IMG/VR virus record: IMGVR_UViG_3300030328_001171
Span: 1 to 25,946 of that record
Length of the DNA stretch: 25,946 bases
Direction: 5' to 3' (one strand)
Source of the DNA: a virus
In this document: piece by piece, positions 13,842 to 18,446 of the stretch
Layout: each line of letters opens with the position of its first letter
Position numbering within the stretch: the first letter of the stretch is position 1
Notes under the pieces: model-generated
The model's input: the letters and a program-made list of their open reading frames with translations, nothing else
What the model was told of the DNA's origin: nothing
The model's database searches: none
Made by a program: the position numbers and the translations under genes

Positions 13842-14504
13842 CTAAAAATTTGTACCAAAAAATGTTGCATTATCTGTTGCTGCTGTTGCATAAGTTATGT
13901 CTAAATATGGATCTCTGCTTGTTCCTGTGTAATTTTGAAAAGCAAAGTATATTTGTGCATAATCTCCACCTAAAGATGGAGCAGAAACAGTAAAATCATA
14001 ATACCCTAAACAACCAACAGTCAATGTTCCACTTCCAATAGCACTATTTACAGCAGCTATTCCATTAGAACCAAAATCAACATCAACATATGCTGGACTT
14101 GTCCCTGCTGAACCAAGTCCATAAGATGTTCCTAATGTTGTTCCACTTGTAAAACAATTACCATAATCAGCATCTGCTCCTGCTAAAGCAGTTGCTCCAA
14201 CAACTAAAAATGATGCCTCCTCATCAGCAGCAGTTCCTAAATTTTTAACATAAGGCTTAAATGAAACAGATGTTGCAGTTCCTGATTCTCCTGATAAATC
14301 AAAGGCAAAATAAGTTCTTGAACAATAATATGTATTTGCTCCTCTACCTCCTGAATACCTATTATAAATAGCAAACTCATAATCTGCTCCTGTATTAGTA
14401 CCATGTGATGCTGAACTTGATACAGTTCCTCTTGCATTTGCCCAAGATGAGTTATCAGTTAATCTAAACCAACCATCATAACCATTTGCATATACCTGAG
14501 CCAT
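13842..14504 (-). CDS. secreted-domain-like / fibre-associated protein, 220 aa (DNRLRE-like)
   Basis: Translation starts in a TAATG overlap with the methyltransferase gene. There is no signal peptide. The phrase RTYFAFDLSG followed by ATSVSFKPYVKNLG, with the closing strands YAQIYFAFQNYTGTSRDPYL and DITYAT, resembles the jelly-roll DNRLRE/carbohydrate-binding type of domain. That would suit a surface-exposed virion protein that binds glycans. Low charge, high G/S/A/Y. Family recognition is tentative; any beta-sandwich fibre tip would look similar. Confidence 0.55.
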   Translation of the reverse strand: MAQVYANGYDGWFRLTDNSSWANARGTVSSSASHGTNTGADYEFAIYNRYSGGRGANTYYCSRTYFAFDLSGESGTATSVSFKPYVKNLGTAADEEASFLVVGATALAGADADYGNCFTSGTTLGTSYGLGSAGTSPAYVDVDFGSNGIAAVNSAIGSGTLTVGCLGYYDFTVSAPSLGGDYAQIYFAFQNYTGTSRDPYLDITYATAATDNATFFGTNF

Positions 14505-15055
14505 TACATTTCAACCTTTGGCATATAGTAATTATTTTTTATATTTGTATACATATTTTCATCAGGTGTTACAGATATTTGCTCATAAATAACAGAATCA
14601 AATGAATGTGGATTATATTCTTCTTCATTATTATTCCAATAAGTAATTTTACCACCACTTTTAATTTTATCTAAAGCAAATGTTTTGAAACTATCTAAAC
14701 TTTCATCTCCAAAAGTATCTAAAAATATACCATCATAAGCAGACAATCCACTAACACTATTCCAATCTCCCTCAATTATAGTAACATTAGATTTATCTTC
14801 TGCCCATATATTTAATTTTTCAATAATCTGTGGGTGTATTTCAATTATTGTATGAGAATTAACACCCTGTGCTTGTATATAATCAGCACAAATGCCCATA
14901 CCAAATCCTATTTCAAGTATATCTCCTTTATTAGAACATATAAATTCAGCACTTTTTTCCATTATAAGTGCTTCCCAGTCCATCATAACCTCAATACCTT
15001 TTGGATCAACTATCTTATTATTATAAAACTCTAATATATTATCTTTAAAAGCCAT
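14504..15055 (-). CDS. SAM-dependent N-methyltransferase, guanidinoacetate/RMT2-like, 183 aa
   Basis: Class I methyltransferase fold with the SAM glycine loop LEIGFGMG (47-54), an acidic strand end IIEIHP (70-75), and the post-motif VTIIEGDW (91-98). The segment VMMDWE (23-28) before the loop, DGIFLDTFGDE (108-118) and SGGKITYWN (133-141) match the pattern of guanidinoacetate methyltransferase and arginine delta-N-methyltransferase 2 (RMT2), whose usual substrates carry guanidino groups. It is shorter than the cellular enzymes. It sits between two fibre-like genes with TAATG overlaps at both ends, so it is co-translated with structural proteins. The substrate (a virion or host protein, or a small molecule) cannot be told from sequence. 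Confidence 0.8.
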   Translation of the reverse strand: MAFKDNILEFYNNKIVDPKGIEVMMDWEALIMEKSAEFICSNKGDILEIGFGMGICADYIQAQGVNSHTIIEIHPQIIEKLNIWAEDKSNVTIIEGDWNSVSGLSAYDGIFLDTFGDESLDSFKTFALDKIKSGGKITYWNNNEEEYNPHSFDSVIYEQISVTPDENMYTNIKNNYYMPKVEM

Positions 15056-16278
15056 TAAAAGTTTAAAGTTGCAACAGCAAAAGCAGTTTGGTCAGTAGCA
15101 TCCCAATATATTGATATTATATCAGTTTTATCTGCTCCTGTTGTTAAAGTAGGAGCAGAACCACCTGCCCATCTAACTTGTCCATCAGTTCCATTTGTTC
15201 CTACATTATTATCACATAAAGTTTCATCATAAGCATAAGCCCTCCACCCTGCACTTGCTACTGTTCTACTTCCTGTTCCATCTTGCACAACTGTTAATAG
15301 AAAATTACCTGATACAGAGGGAAATATCATATTGATATATTCACTTGAACCTGATATATTATCTGTTAATGTTAATTCATATTTATTACCAAATCTAAAA
15401 TCAACATCAGTAGAATCATTACCATCTCCAATTACTCCTGATGTGCCAAATATTGCAGCTTGTCTACTAAATCCTGCACAAGAAGCCTTAAAATAAAAAT
15501 AGTTTCCATTATCCCCATCTTCTTTTACTCTAAGCATATTATCACCACCAACATATAAATCTAATACATCTGCTGATTGTTCATGCAGGTAAGTATCTCC
15601 TGCACCCAATATCAACTTACCAGTAGAAGCTATAGATAAATCAGTTCCATCAAAAGTTAGATTAGATTCAGCAGTTATAGCACTTGTTCCTGTTCCTGTT
15701 AATATACTATTATCTGTTAATGAAGATGCTCCTGTTCCTCCATTTTCAACTGCTAAGTCAGTCCCATCCCAATCATCATTATTAATTTCAAGGTCACCAC
15801 CTAATGTAAGATTACCTGATGATGTTATAGTGCCTGTTAATGTTAATCCATTAATTGTGCCTGTACCACCTGCTGATGTTACTGTACCTGTAGTAGTTGT
15901 AAAACCTGATGAACTATTATCATAATTTGACAAGTCATCATCTACTACTAAATCTACAGTTCCATCTGCATCTTGGTAGGTAGCAGCTATAAGAGTTTCA
16001 GTATTCCCAGTAAACATATCTCCTACTTTGTCTTGAACTTGCTCATCAGTTAAGGTTGCAGTTACAACAGCAGATCCATCAACATTAATAGATTCTGCAT
16101 TTATAGTACCAGTTACCTTTAATTCTGATTCTGATAATTCTATTGGAGTAGATTTATCACCTATTTTCAAAGGCTTTAAGTGATTATCTAATGTGCTATC
16201 ACCAGCAAGGGAAACTAAGTTTTTTAGCTTCCCTTGAAAAACACTTTTTAATGCTTTTTTAATTGATGATATTGACAT
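15055..16278 (-). CDS. tail fibre / spike-like protein, 407 aa
   Basis: Long stretches of short G/T/S repeats (residues ~125-240, for example TGTITSSGNLTLGGDLEINN and ENGGTGASSLTDN) are typical of the shaft of marine phage fibre or structural proteins. The N-terminal ~75 residues include a basic start (SSIKKALKSVFQGKLKNL), then KIGDKSTPIELSESELKV, a motif shared in outline with the 258-aa protein. The C-terminal end (QVRWAGGSAPTLTTGADKTD, IISIYWDATDQTAFAVATLNF-like close) matches the end style of such proteins. ATG overlaps the stop of the 50-aa gene. Which virion part it belongs to is unknown. Confidence 0.65.
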   Translation of the reverse strand: MSISSIKKALKSVFQGKLKNLVSLAGDSTLDNHLKPLKIGDKSTPIELSESELKVTGTINAESINVDGSAVVTATLTDEQVQDKVGDMFTGNTETLIAATYQDADGTVDLVVDDDLSNYDNSSSGFTTTTGTVTSAGGTGTINGLTLTGTITSSGNLTLGGDLEINNDDWDGTDLAVENGGTGASSLTDNSILTGTGTSAITAESNLTFDGTDLSIASTGKLILGAGDTYLHEQSADVLDLYVGGDNMLRVKEDGDNGNYFYFKASCAGFSRQAAIFGTSGVIGDGNDSTDVDFRFGNKYELTLTDNISGSSEYINMIFPSVSGNFLLTVVQDGTGSRTVASAGWRAYAYDETLCDNNVGTNGTDGQVRWAGGSAPTLTTGADKTDIISIYWDATDQTAFAVATLNF

Positions 16279-17249: not shown

Positions 17250-18446
17250 TCATACTATTACTTTAAATATTGTTGTTCCTTGATTAACTTTGCCTGAACT
17301 CTTTGCATTGTATGATTCTAAAGAACTATCTATATCATACATATCATTATCATAGTTTTGCAAGTCAATTTTTATTCCATCTCTATTGCCATTCTCATAG
17401 AAGATATAACAATTCTGTGATGCTCTACCTGCTAAGTTTAATGCCTTCTCAGAATAATCATTTGCTCCTACCATACTACTGCTTCTACTAAATGTATCAC
17501 CCACCCTTGCAGAATGTATATGTCCAAAAATAACATAATCTACATTTAACCCTCTTGACTTGTATCTTCCCATTATCTGAGTGATACTTGTGTCAATGCC
17601 TTTTTTAATAGAACCATTACCATGTAATAACAATAAATTTTGTCCTGCAACCTCAACTACCATCTCAGTTGGGTCACCTTGTATAAAATTAACCTTACTA
17701 TCTTTAAATATATACTCTAATGTTTTAAATATAGTAAAATCATAATTATCAGAAGCTAACATATTACTCCAGCCCCAGTCTTTTTTTACTCTTGATTCAT
17801 TGCCTGTAACTGCTGCTACTGAAACATTAAAGTGTTTGTTTAACTCTAAAATAATCTGTTGAAATATATCTACTGCTAAAAAAGTAGCCTTTGCTCTGTT
17901 AGTAGCCATATTAAGTAATTCATCTAACCTTCTATCACTATTTAACAAATCACCTGTTTGTGCTATTAATATATTGCTTATATCTTGTGATTTAAAGAAA
18001 GATATTGCCCTTTTAACAAAGTATTTACATCTTTTAGATGCAACCTTAAAGTCATACTTATTATGCTCTAAATCAACTAATTCATTAAAATGCACATCAC
18101 TAAACTGGATAACACCACAAGCCTTGTTTTTTTGTTTATGTGATTTAGTTAGTTTACTTAACTTATAATTGTCAAAAATCTCTGTTAGTTTGTAATTGTA
18201 TTTAGATACTGCATTTTCTATTCTTGCATATTCTCTAAATGCTTTTCTTTCAATTCTATTTAGATCTTGTAATGATTGTTTTTGTTTTGCTAATTTTACA
18301 TTTGATGTAATTATGTCTACATCATCAGGTGATAGTGGATATATTGTTTTATGATTGCATTTTTTACATTTATATCTTTGTCTACCTCTGTGCCAACCTT
18401 CTTTACCCAGTTGTAAACTAAAGCAATTAGGACAAACAAGTTCCAT
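17250..18446 (-). CDS. zinc-ribbon metallophosphoesterase (Mre11/SbcD-type nuclease candidate), 398 aa
   Basis: Domain 1 (residues 1-35) is a zinc ribbon with C5-x2-C8 and C27-x2-C30 separated by an R/K-rich loop, like DNA-binding ribbons of transposase relatives. Domain 2 (112-340) is a calcineurin-like phosphoesterase with D117-x-H119, G165-D166-x-x-N169, G215-N216-E217, H275 (LLLLHGNG) and GH309-x-H311. A charged helical linker lies between. In the third motif E replaces the usual catalytic H of GNH, as I recall for some phage relatives, so catalysis may differ. Likely a two-metal nuclease or phosphatase on DNA. It stands among lysis and structural genes, an odd place for a replication enzyme; it may act in DNA processing before packaging or in host-DNA degradation. 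Confidence 0.8.
   Translation of the reverse strand: MELVCPNCFSLQLGKEGWHRGRQRYKCKKCNHKTIYPLSPDDVDIITSNVKLAKQKQSLQDLNRIERKAFREYARIENAVSKYNYKLTEIFDNYKLSKLTKSHKQKNKACGVIQFSDVHFNELVDLEHNKYDFKVASKRCKYFVKRAISFFKSQDISNILIAQTGDLLNSDRRLDELLNMATNRAKATFLAVDIFQQIILELNKHFNVSVAAVTGNESRVKKDWGWSNMLASDNYDFTIFKTLEYIFKDSKVNFIQGDPTEMVVEVAGQNLLLLHGNGSIKKGIDTSITQIMGRYKSRGLNVDYVIFGHIHSARVGDTFSRSSSMVGANDYSEKALNLAGRASQNCYIFYENGNRDGIKIDLQNYDNDMYDIDSSLESYNAKSSGKVNQGTTIFKVIV

Follow-up and report, generated by a model that had tools for sequence, protein, structure and literature searches.

Results and Discussion

A GAMT-like gene in a phage structural module

Why would a phage carry an enzyme resembling guanidinoacetate methyltransferase (GAMT) among its fiber genes, and what would that enzyme methylate? 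We addressed this question in IMG/VR virus record IMGVR_UViG_3300030328_001171, whose 25,946 bases make up the window (the whole stretch of DNA that was analyzed; the record does not give its completeness). The best explanation, to which we give an even chance, is an active enzyme that methylates a protein-bound arginine, most likely R54 of the protein encoded by the next gene.

Genes in the window include those for a terminase, a portal, a major head protein, an endolysin, and a tape-measure protein; the region is therefore a tailed-phage structural module. The initial annotation had placed a methyltransferase with the motifs VMMDWE, LEIGFGMG, and LDTFGDE at 14504-15055, and the ORF found there matched this description exactly, on the minus strand and with 183 aa. 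The features needed below are as follows.

13842..14504, minus strand: partner adhesin (putative), 220 aa, beta sandwich with a CBM96/chondroitin-CBM-like fold (predicted model and fold search)
14316..14318, minus strand: codon of adhesin R63 (AGA), the internal control, kept with or without the methyltransferase
14343..14345, minus strand: codon of adhesin R54 (AGA), in a two-residue beta-hairpin turn, proposed methylation site
14502..14506, minus strand: TAATG junction between methyltransferase and adhesin
14504..15055, minus strand: GAMT-superfamily methyltransferase, 183 aa (ORF list, sequence search, fold)
14717..14719, minus strand: codon of methyltransferase D113, equivalent of the GAMT general base Asp134 (PDB alignment)
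14972..14974, minus strand: codon of methyltransferase E28, in the MDWE motif, equivalent of GAMT Glu45 (PDB alignment)
15053..15057, minus strand: TAATG junction between fiber and methyltransferase
15055..16278, minus strand: upstream fiber-like gene, 407 aa, C-terminal cap type 1

The gene had also been described as locked by overlaps between two fiber-like genes. TAATG overlaps are indeed present on both sides, but the downstream gene encodes a CBM96-like adhesin and not a fiber. Such overlaps are frequent across the window genome; what sets this locus apart is its fixed gene order rather than the overlap by itself. Between the lysis and fiber genes, the window also carries an exonuclease-like gene (17250-18446; phrog_284, 8.2e-59) whose N-terminus looks like a zinc ribbon by eye.

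The ORF product is a member of the GAMT superfamily

A phmmer search of the PDB with the methyltransferase returned GAMT on top (1xcj, 1.4e-12; 3orh, 2.6e-12), followed by KsgA-type rRNA methyltransferases at 0.045. The gap widened with a profile of 18 relatives (GAMT 8.8e-21, next family 0.016). An AlphaFold2 model (pLDDT 93.3) superimposed on the GAMT fold with Z 22.9 and an rmsd of 2.1 over 180/183 residues at 27% identity. Three GAMT entries led the fold search (Z 22.9, 22.8, and 19.5), and the next class I methyltransferases scored 16.1. In the PDB alignment, E28 fell on the catalytic Glu45 of GAMT and D113 on Asp134. Asp134 is the general base of GAMT according to PMC12471008 and PMC12842229. 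Among 140 distinct full-length relatives, the catalytic E and the catalytic D were each recovered in 138, and the pattern used did not match the remaining two. Thus, the ORF is a real member of the GAMT superfamily by sequence, fold, and catalytic residues, and the proposed assignment to a GAMT/RMT2-like family that methylates guanidino nitrogens held on all three counts.

Pfam and NCBIfam scans gave no GAMT match. Their best matches were KsgA-type and stayed below the cut-offs for KsgA/Erm (TIGR00755, 25.7 bits versus a cut-off of 171; PF00398, 22.2 versus 24). We also looked for the closer kinship to rRNA or sugar methylases that would have spoken against the original assignment and did not find it. 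The rRNA-methylase reading was dropped because the KsgA-type matches are below cut-off and GAMT is far ahead by sequence and fold.

A tree with GAMT and phage homologues, as the initial annotation had proposed, was built from 118 rows: 38 phage enzymes, 2 GAMT sequences, and 78 of 80 bacterial sequences (those with masked stretches or shorter than 100 aa were left out). The phage enzymes and the GAMT rows lay on opposite sides of a branch with 100/100 support, with bacterial rows between them. The phage enzymes did not group with animal GAMT, as members of GAMT proper would be expected to do. One contig from a Flavobacteriales metagenome-assembled genome (L087) fell inside the phage clade; the nearest other cellular row (L088) sat on a long branch. 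Some bacterial GAMT-like domains lie within very long ORFs (L091, L132, L142, L144, L151, L154, and others), and at least L091 looks, by eye, fused to an adenylation-type (NRPS-like) domain.

The phage enzyme and GAMT (3orh, 1xcj) share their fold, the VM..WE and LE(I/V)GFGM motifs, and the E45/D134 equivalents. The phage enzyme is shorter, with 183 versus 236 aa; residue 2-3 of the phage protein pairs with residue 19 of GAMT. The GAMT family includes SznE, and yeast RMT2 is a protein arginine delta-N-methyltransferase with a GAMT-like domain behind an N-terminal extension. The phage protein has no such separate N-terminal domain: only 22 of its 183 residues precede the VMM motif. RMT2, which we compared by description only, is listed as a protein methyltransferase (PMC3153492). 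The chemistry that we propose, methylation of protein-bound arginine by a GAMT-like domain, would be the same, but the substrate would be a phage adhesin.

The adhesin gene follows the methyltransferase gene at all 121 loci with enough downstream sequence

A search of IMG/VR with the single methyltransferase protein found 25 relatives with 48-82% identity. Two alignment-based searches confirmed 430 of 463 and 408 of 457 pattern stretches as relatives, with 80 retained each time. The enzyme therefore has more than 400 relatives in IMG/VR, and the ORF is not a chance one. A single named phage record, the 634-kb LR745206, gave a match.

We examined 165 loci (the window and 164 obtained with methyltransferase queries) and removed 35 duplicates and 9 loci with <450 bases downstream; loci L385-L397 lie on contigs already counted and were left out of the counts. 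In all 121 remaining distinct loci, the next gene downstream of the methyltransferase belongs to the adhesin family, and in 102 of them its start lies at offset -1 or 0 relative to where the methyltransferase ends. The gene preceding the methyltransferase, where read, is a fiber with a variable N-terminal part and one of two C-terminal caps. The Flavobacteriales contig carries the same methyltransferase/adhesin pair, its adhesin with an RGG tip. The association with virion-type proteins is thus stronger than had been claimed. The pair is real and widespread, the family of its enzyme is confirmed, and its function is proposed.

In the huge phage LR745206, the methyltransferase gene also follows a fiber-type gene; no adhesin was found in that record, in a search that had no positive control. 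Searches for the adhesin in named phages gave no matches, and the window adhesin used as a lone pattern query found no relatives.

Adhesin genes that lack the enzyme often overlap the preceding gene directly (21 of 30, 19 of these by TAATG). The enzyme gene thus acts like a module that can enter or leave between two such junctions.

The partner has the fold of polysaccharide-binding modules

The window adhesin was modeled as a beta sandwich with a pLDDT of 93.1. Its best fold matches were a chondroitin-sulfate-binding module (8wab, Z 15.8) and an alginate-binding CBM96 (7vbo, Z 14.7; rmsd 3.5 over 167 residues), and the next unrelated rows, growth factor prodomains, began at Z 10.0. At the sequence level, Pfam CBM96 was touched by 10 of 47 adhesin members at E values up to 0.1 (best 7.6e-4). 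Ten relatives scanned singly gave a best CBM96 score of 15.3 bits versus a cut-off of 26, with all shown scores below the cut-off, and a Pfam scan of the window adhesin returned no family at all. The protein therefore has a CBM96-like fold but is not a CBM96 member by sequence. It shares the beta sandwich with 7vbo and 8wab and differs from them in being a stand-alone phage protein with two invariant arginines and sub-cut-off Pfam scores. We call it a putative adhesin from its predicted fold and its gene place.

The gene that follows some enzyme-less adhesins (L229 2100-4538, L232 3748-6216, L276 3533-5854) encodes a protein of about 770-820 aa that begins much like a signal peptide. The C-terminal end of the L232 and L276 proteins is similar to a Bacteroidota type IX secretion sorting signal. 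These genes hint at Bacteroidota hosts and at phage-encoded exported proteins.

R54 is invariant where the enzyme is present

In a first set of 68 distinct adhesins, the columns of R54 and R63 were arginine in 68/68, and no other column was seen at 68/68. In the model, strands 41-53 and 56-69 are joined by a two-residue turn that contains R54, and R63 lies in mid-strand.

A further adhesin search that did not rely on the enzyme yielded 294 ORFs of at least 120 aa, 175 of them distinct. The enzyme gene was adjacent in 138; 30 had no enzyme and >700 bases upstream, 6 lay at contig ends, and a single, poorly aligning adhesin (L274) had the enzyme in its locus but not adjacent. The queries for the enzyme-less set were built mostly from enzyme-linked members. 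Arginine occupied both the R54 and the R63 column in 138/138 distinct enzyme-linked adhesins. In the enzyme-less adhesins, R63 was kept in 30/30 whereas the R54 column held arginine in 16/30 by plain alignment, and many of the rows retaining it have a shortened hairpin tip. An arginine 8-11 residues before R63 was present in 136/138 adhesins with the enzyme versus 8/30 without it (Fisher test on 60% clusters, which ignores the tree, 1e-7).

In the window's own group, three enzyme-less adhesins from two lineages have K, K, and I in place of R54, with the other seven conserved columns intact. In a second group, the other four conserved columns were intact in 27/27 enzyme-less rows while R54 varied. 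Lysine at this place was found in 0/138 adhesins with the enzyme and in some without it (L176, L177, L204, and L212). Thus, R54 is invariant with the enzyme and the constraint on it is relaxed without; R63 is explained by the fold, and R54 is needed where the enzyme is present.

A strict law of co-occurrence was weakened by more data. A quick tree was built from 159 of the 175 adhesins, those of 180-300 aa with or without the enzyme. Its 26 enzyme-less rows of normal length formed 12 clades, four of which keep a full-length R tip (L229/232, L187/196, L259/261/267, and L279); the tip is a perfect RGGG in the last two. No enzyme relatives were found in the records, possibly fragments, of these tip-keeping clades, and no PF13649 match was found in the eight such records tested. 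Distant enzyme-less adhesins may have lacked the enzyme from the outset.

Arginine depletion in general under CpG pressure was considered as the cause of R54 loss in L176, L177, and L185 (CpG observed/expected 0.07, 0.05, and 0). It is not sufficient, because R63 stays in all three and the zero-CpG window and L039 keep R54 as AGA.

A proposed enzyme and substrate pair

A guanidino-methylating fold encoded next door and an R54 tied to the enzyme make R54 the economical candidate substrate. We propose that the ORF product would be an active, SAM-dependent GAMT-superfamily methyltransferase acting on one of the guanidino nitrogens of a protein-bound arginine. The target would most likely be R54, which sits at the tip of a hairpin in the adhesin from the next, translationally overlapping gene. 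This adhesin, with its fold of acidic-polysaccharide-binding modules, is probably carried at the fiber end. Methylation of R54 would alter its charge shell and hydrogen bonding and may thereby tune or protect ligand binding. The tip is retained in four lineages that lack the enzyme, and the huge phage has the enzyme in a record where no adhesin was found. R54 is therefore named here as a candidate; that the enzyme methylates it seems to us evenly balanced.

If this is true, these phages chemically modify the protein with which they recognize their hosts. Such tailoring of a receptor-binding protein after translation, encoded by the phage itself, would add a layer of host range invisible to sequence alone. 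A 2026 study (PMC13288928) describes virion proteins of marine Cellulophaga phages, a putative tail fiber included, in which lysine and arginine are methylated, and its authors state that no methyltransferase gene is known from any of those phages. The present locus would offer a concrete phage enzyme for virion arginine methylation and would name a single partner protein and a single residue as candidates. In the titles and abstract beginnings listed from one PMC library, the literature that was searched, we found no account of this module under phage-encoded protein arginine methyltransferases or methylation of receptor-binding proteins.

Other substrates and other functions

The enzyme might instead methylate another protein arginine, whether in the upstream fiber, in a different virion protein, or in a surface protein of the host; we consider this unlikely. 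It fits the chemistry of the family and the fiber-module place in LR745206, where no adhesin was found, and fibers with cap type 2 have an arginine of their own at 77/79. The best arginine column of cap type 1 reaches only 35/55, and the upstream fiber was therefore dropped as the common substrate. The adjacency of the adhesin in 121/121 loci and an R54 constraint that tracks the enzyme also speak against this alternative. The initial interpretation is supported in part: its family held, no conserved arginine common to the two fiber cap types was found, and the partner adhesin's arginine is the candidate substrate that the data favor.

Somewhat less probable still is a small-molecule enzyme of creatine or N-methylarginine metabolism, which would make the gene an auxiliary metabolic one, the role that PMC11360552 proposes for viral GAMT in the ocean. 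The closest characterized relative is GAMT itself, and PMC12637814 mentions a free-arginine methyltransferase, SznE. We scanned 40 enzyme-bearing records (the window and 39 of the larger records) for the amidinotransferase family PF02274 and found it in 0/40; the control search matched in 3 of 14 genomes, and a host could supply guanidinoacetate. A metabolic role also stands against the adjoining adhesin gene in 121/121 loci and leaves R54 unexplained. With their own branch (100/100), fiber-module context, and lack of an amidinotransferase in these records, the phage enzymes differ from GAMT.

This bears on a 2024 ocean survey. PMC11360552 reports that viral GAMT (K00542) had the greatest enrichment over microbial homologues (85.4-fold) and occurred in nine Arctic populations, and it proposes creatine synthesis. 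These ocean virus genes annotated as GAMT probably include the present phage family, for which gene context points instead to modification of a virion-type adhesin. If so, the most enriched of the viral metabolic genes compared may not be metabolic and may be misnamed. We tentatively go further, at somewhat below an even chance: the locus would represent a widespread two-gene module of marine phages, a dedicated protein-arginine methyltransferase with its own CBM-like adhesin as substrate, with an enzyme gene that is gained and lost at TAATG junctions between fiber and adhesin, and the viral "creatine synthesis" genes of ocean surveys would largely be this module.

It is improbable that the adhesin arginines are unmodified ligand contacts as in CBM96, with the enzyme acting elsewhere and the two traits linked only by a shared ligand ecology. 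PMC9971899 identifies Lys27 and Arg36 of CBM96, nine residues apart, as key residues in the binding of alginate, which is lost in the R36E mutant. R54 and R63 have the same spacing of nine, and lysine replaces R54 in some enzyme-less relatives. The likeness is one of spacing, without established residue equivalence, and purely charge-based ligand binding does not predict the complete lack of lysine in the 138 adhesins with the enzyme. Finally, a methyltransferase fold acting on another nucleophile (an rRNA or DNA base, or a sugar) or serving as a non-catalytic chaperone of fiber assembly is scarcely credible: the sub-cut-off KsgA-type matches in Pfam and NCBIfam, where GAMT is absent, are set against the lead of GAMT by sequence and fold and against catalytic residues kept in nearly all relatives.

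CpG absence explains the arginine codons

The initial annotation had remarked on the coincidence of an arginine-modifying enzyme in a genome with restricted arginine codons. The restriction is real: the 228 arginine codons of the window are 203 AGA, 25 AGG, and 0 CGN. It has a cause other than the enzyme, because CpG is absent from the whole window (0 versus about 560 expected; GpC observed/expected 1.33) and CGN codons are absent with it. The only 4-mers without CG that are missing are CTAG and GGCC. The methyltransferase itself contains no arginine. The pattern looks like a total purging of CpG, perhaps directed against a CpG-targeting host defense. Two other adhesin-bearing contigs (L039/L179 and L185) have zero CpG over about 10 kb, and the median CpG observed/expected is 0.45 across 306 viral loci, a number that includes overlapping ones.
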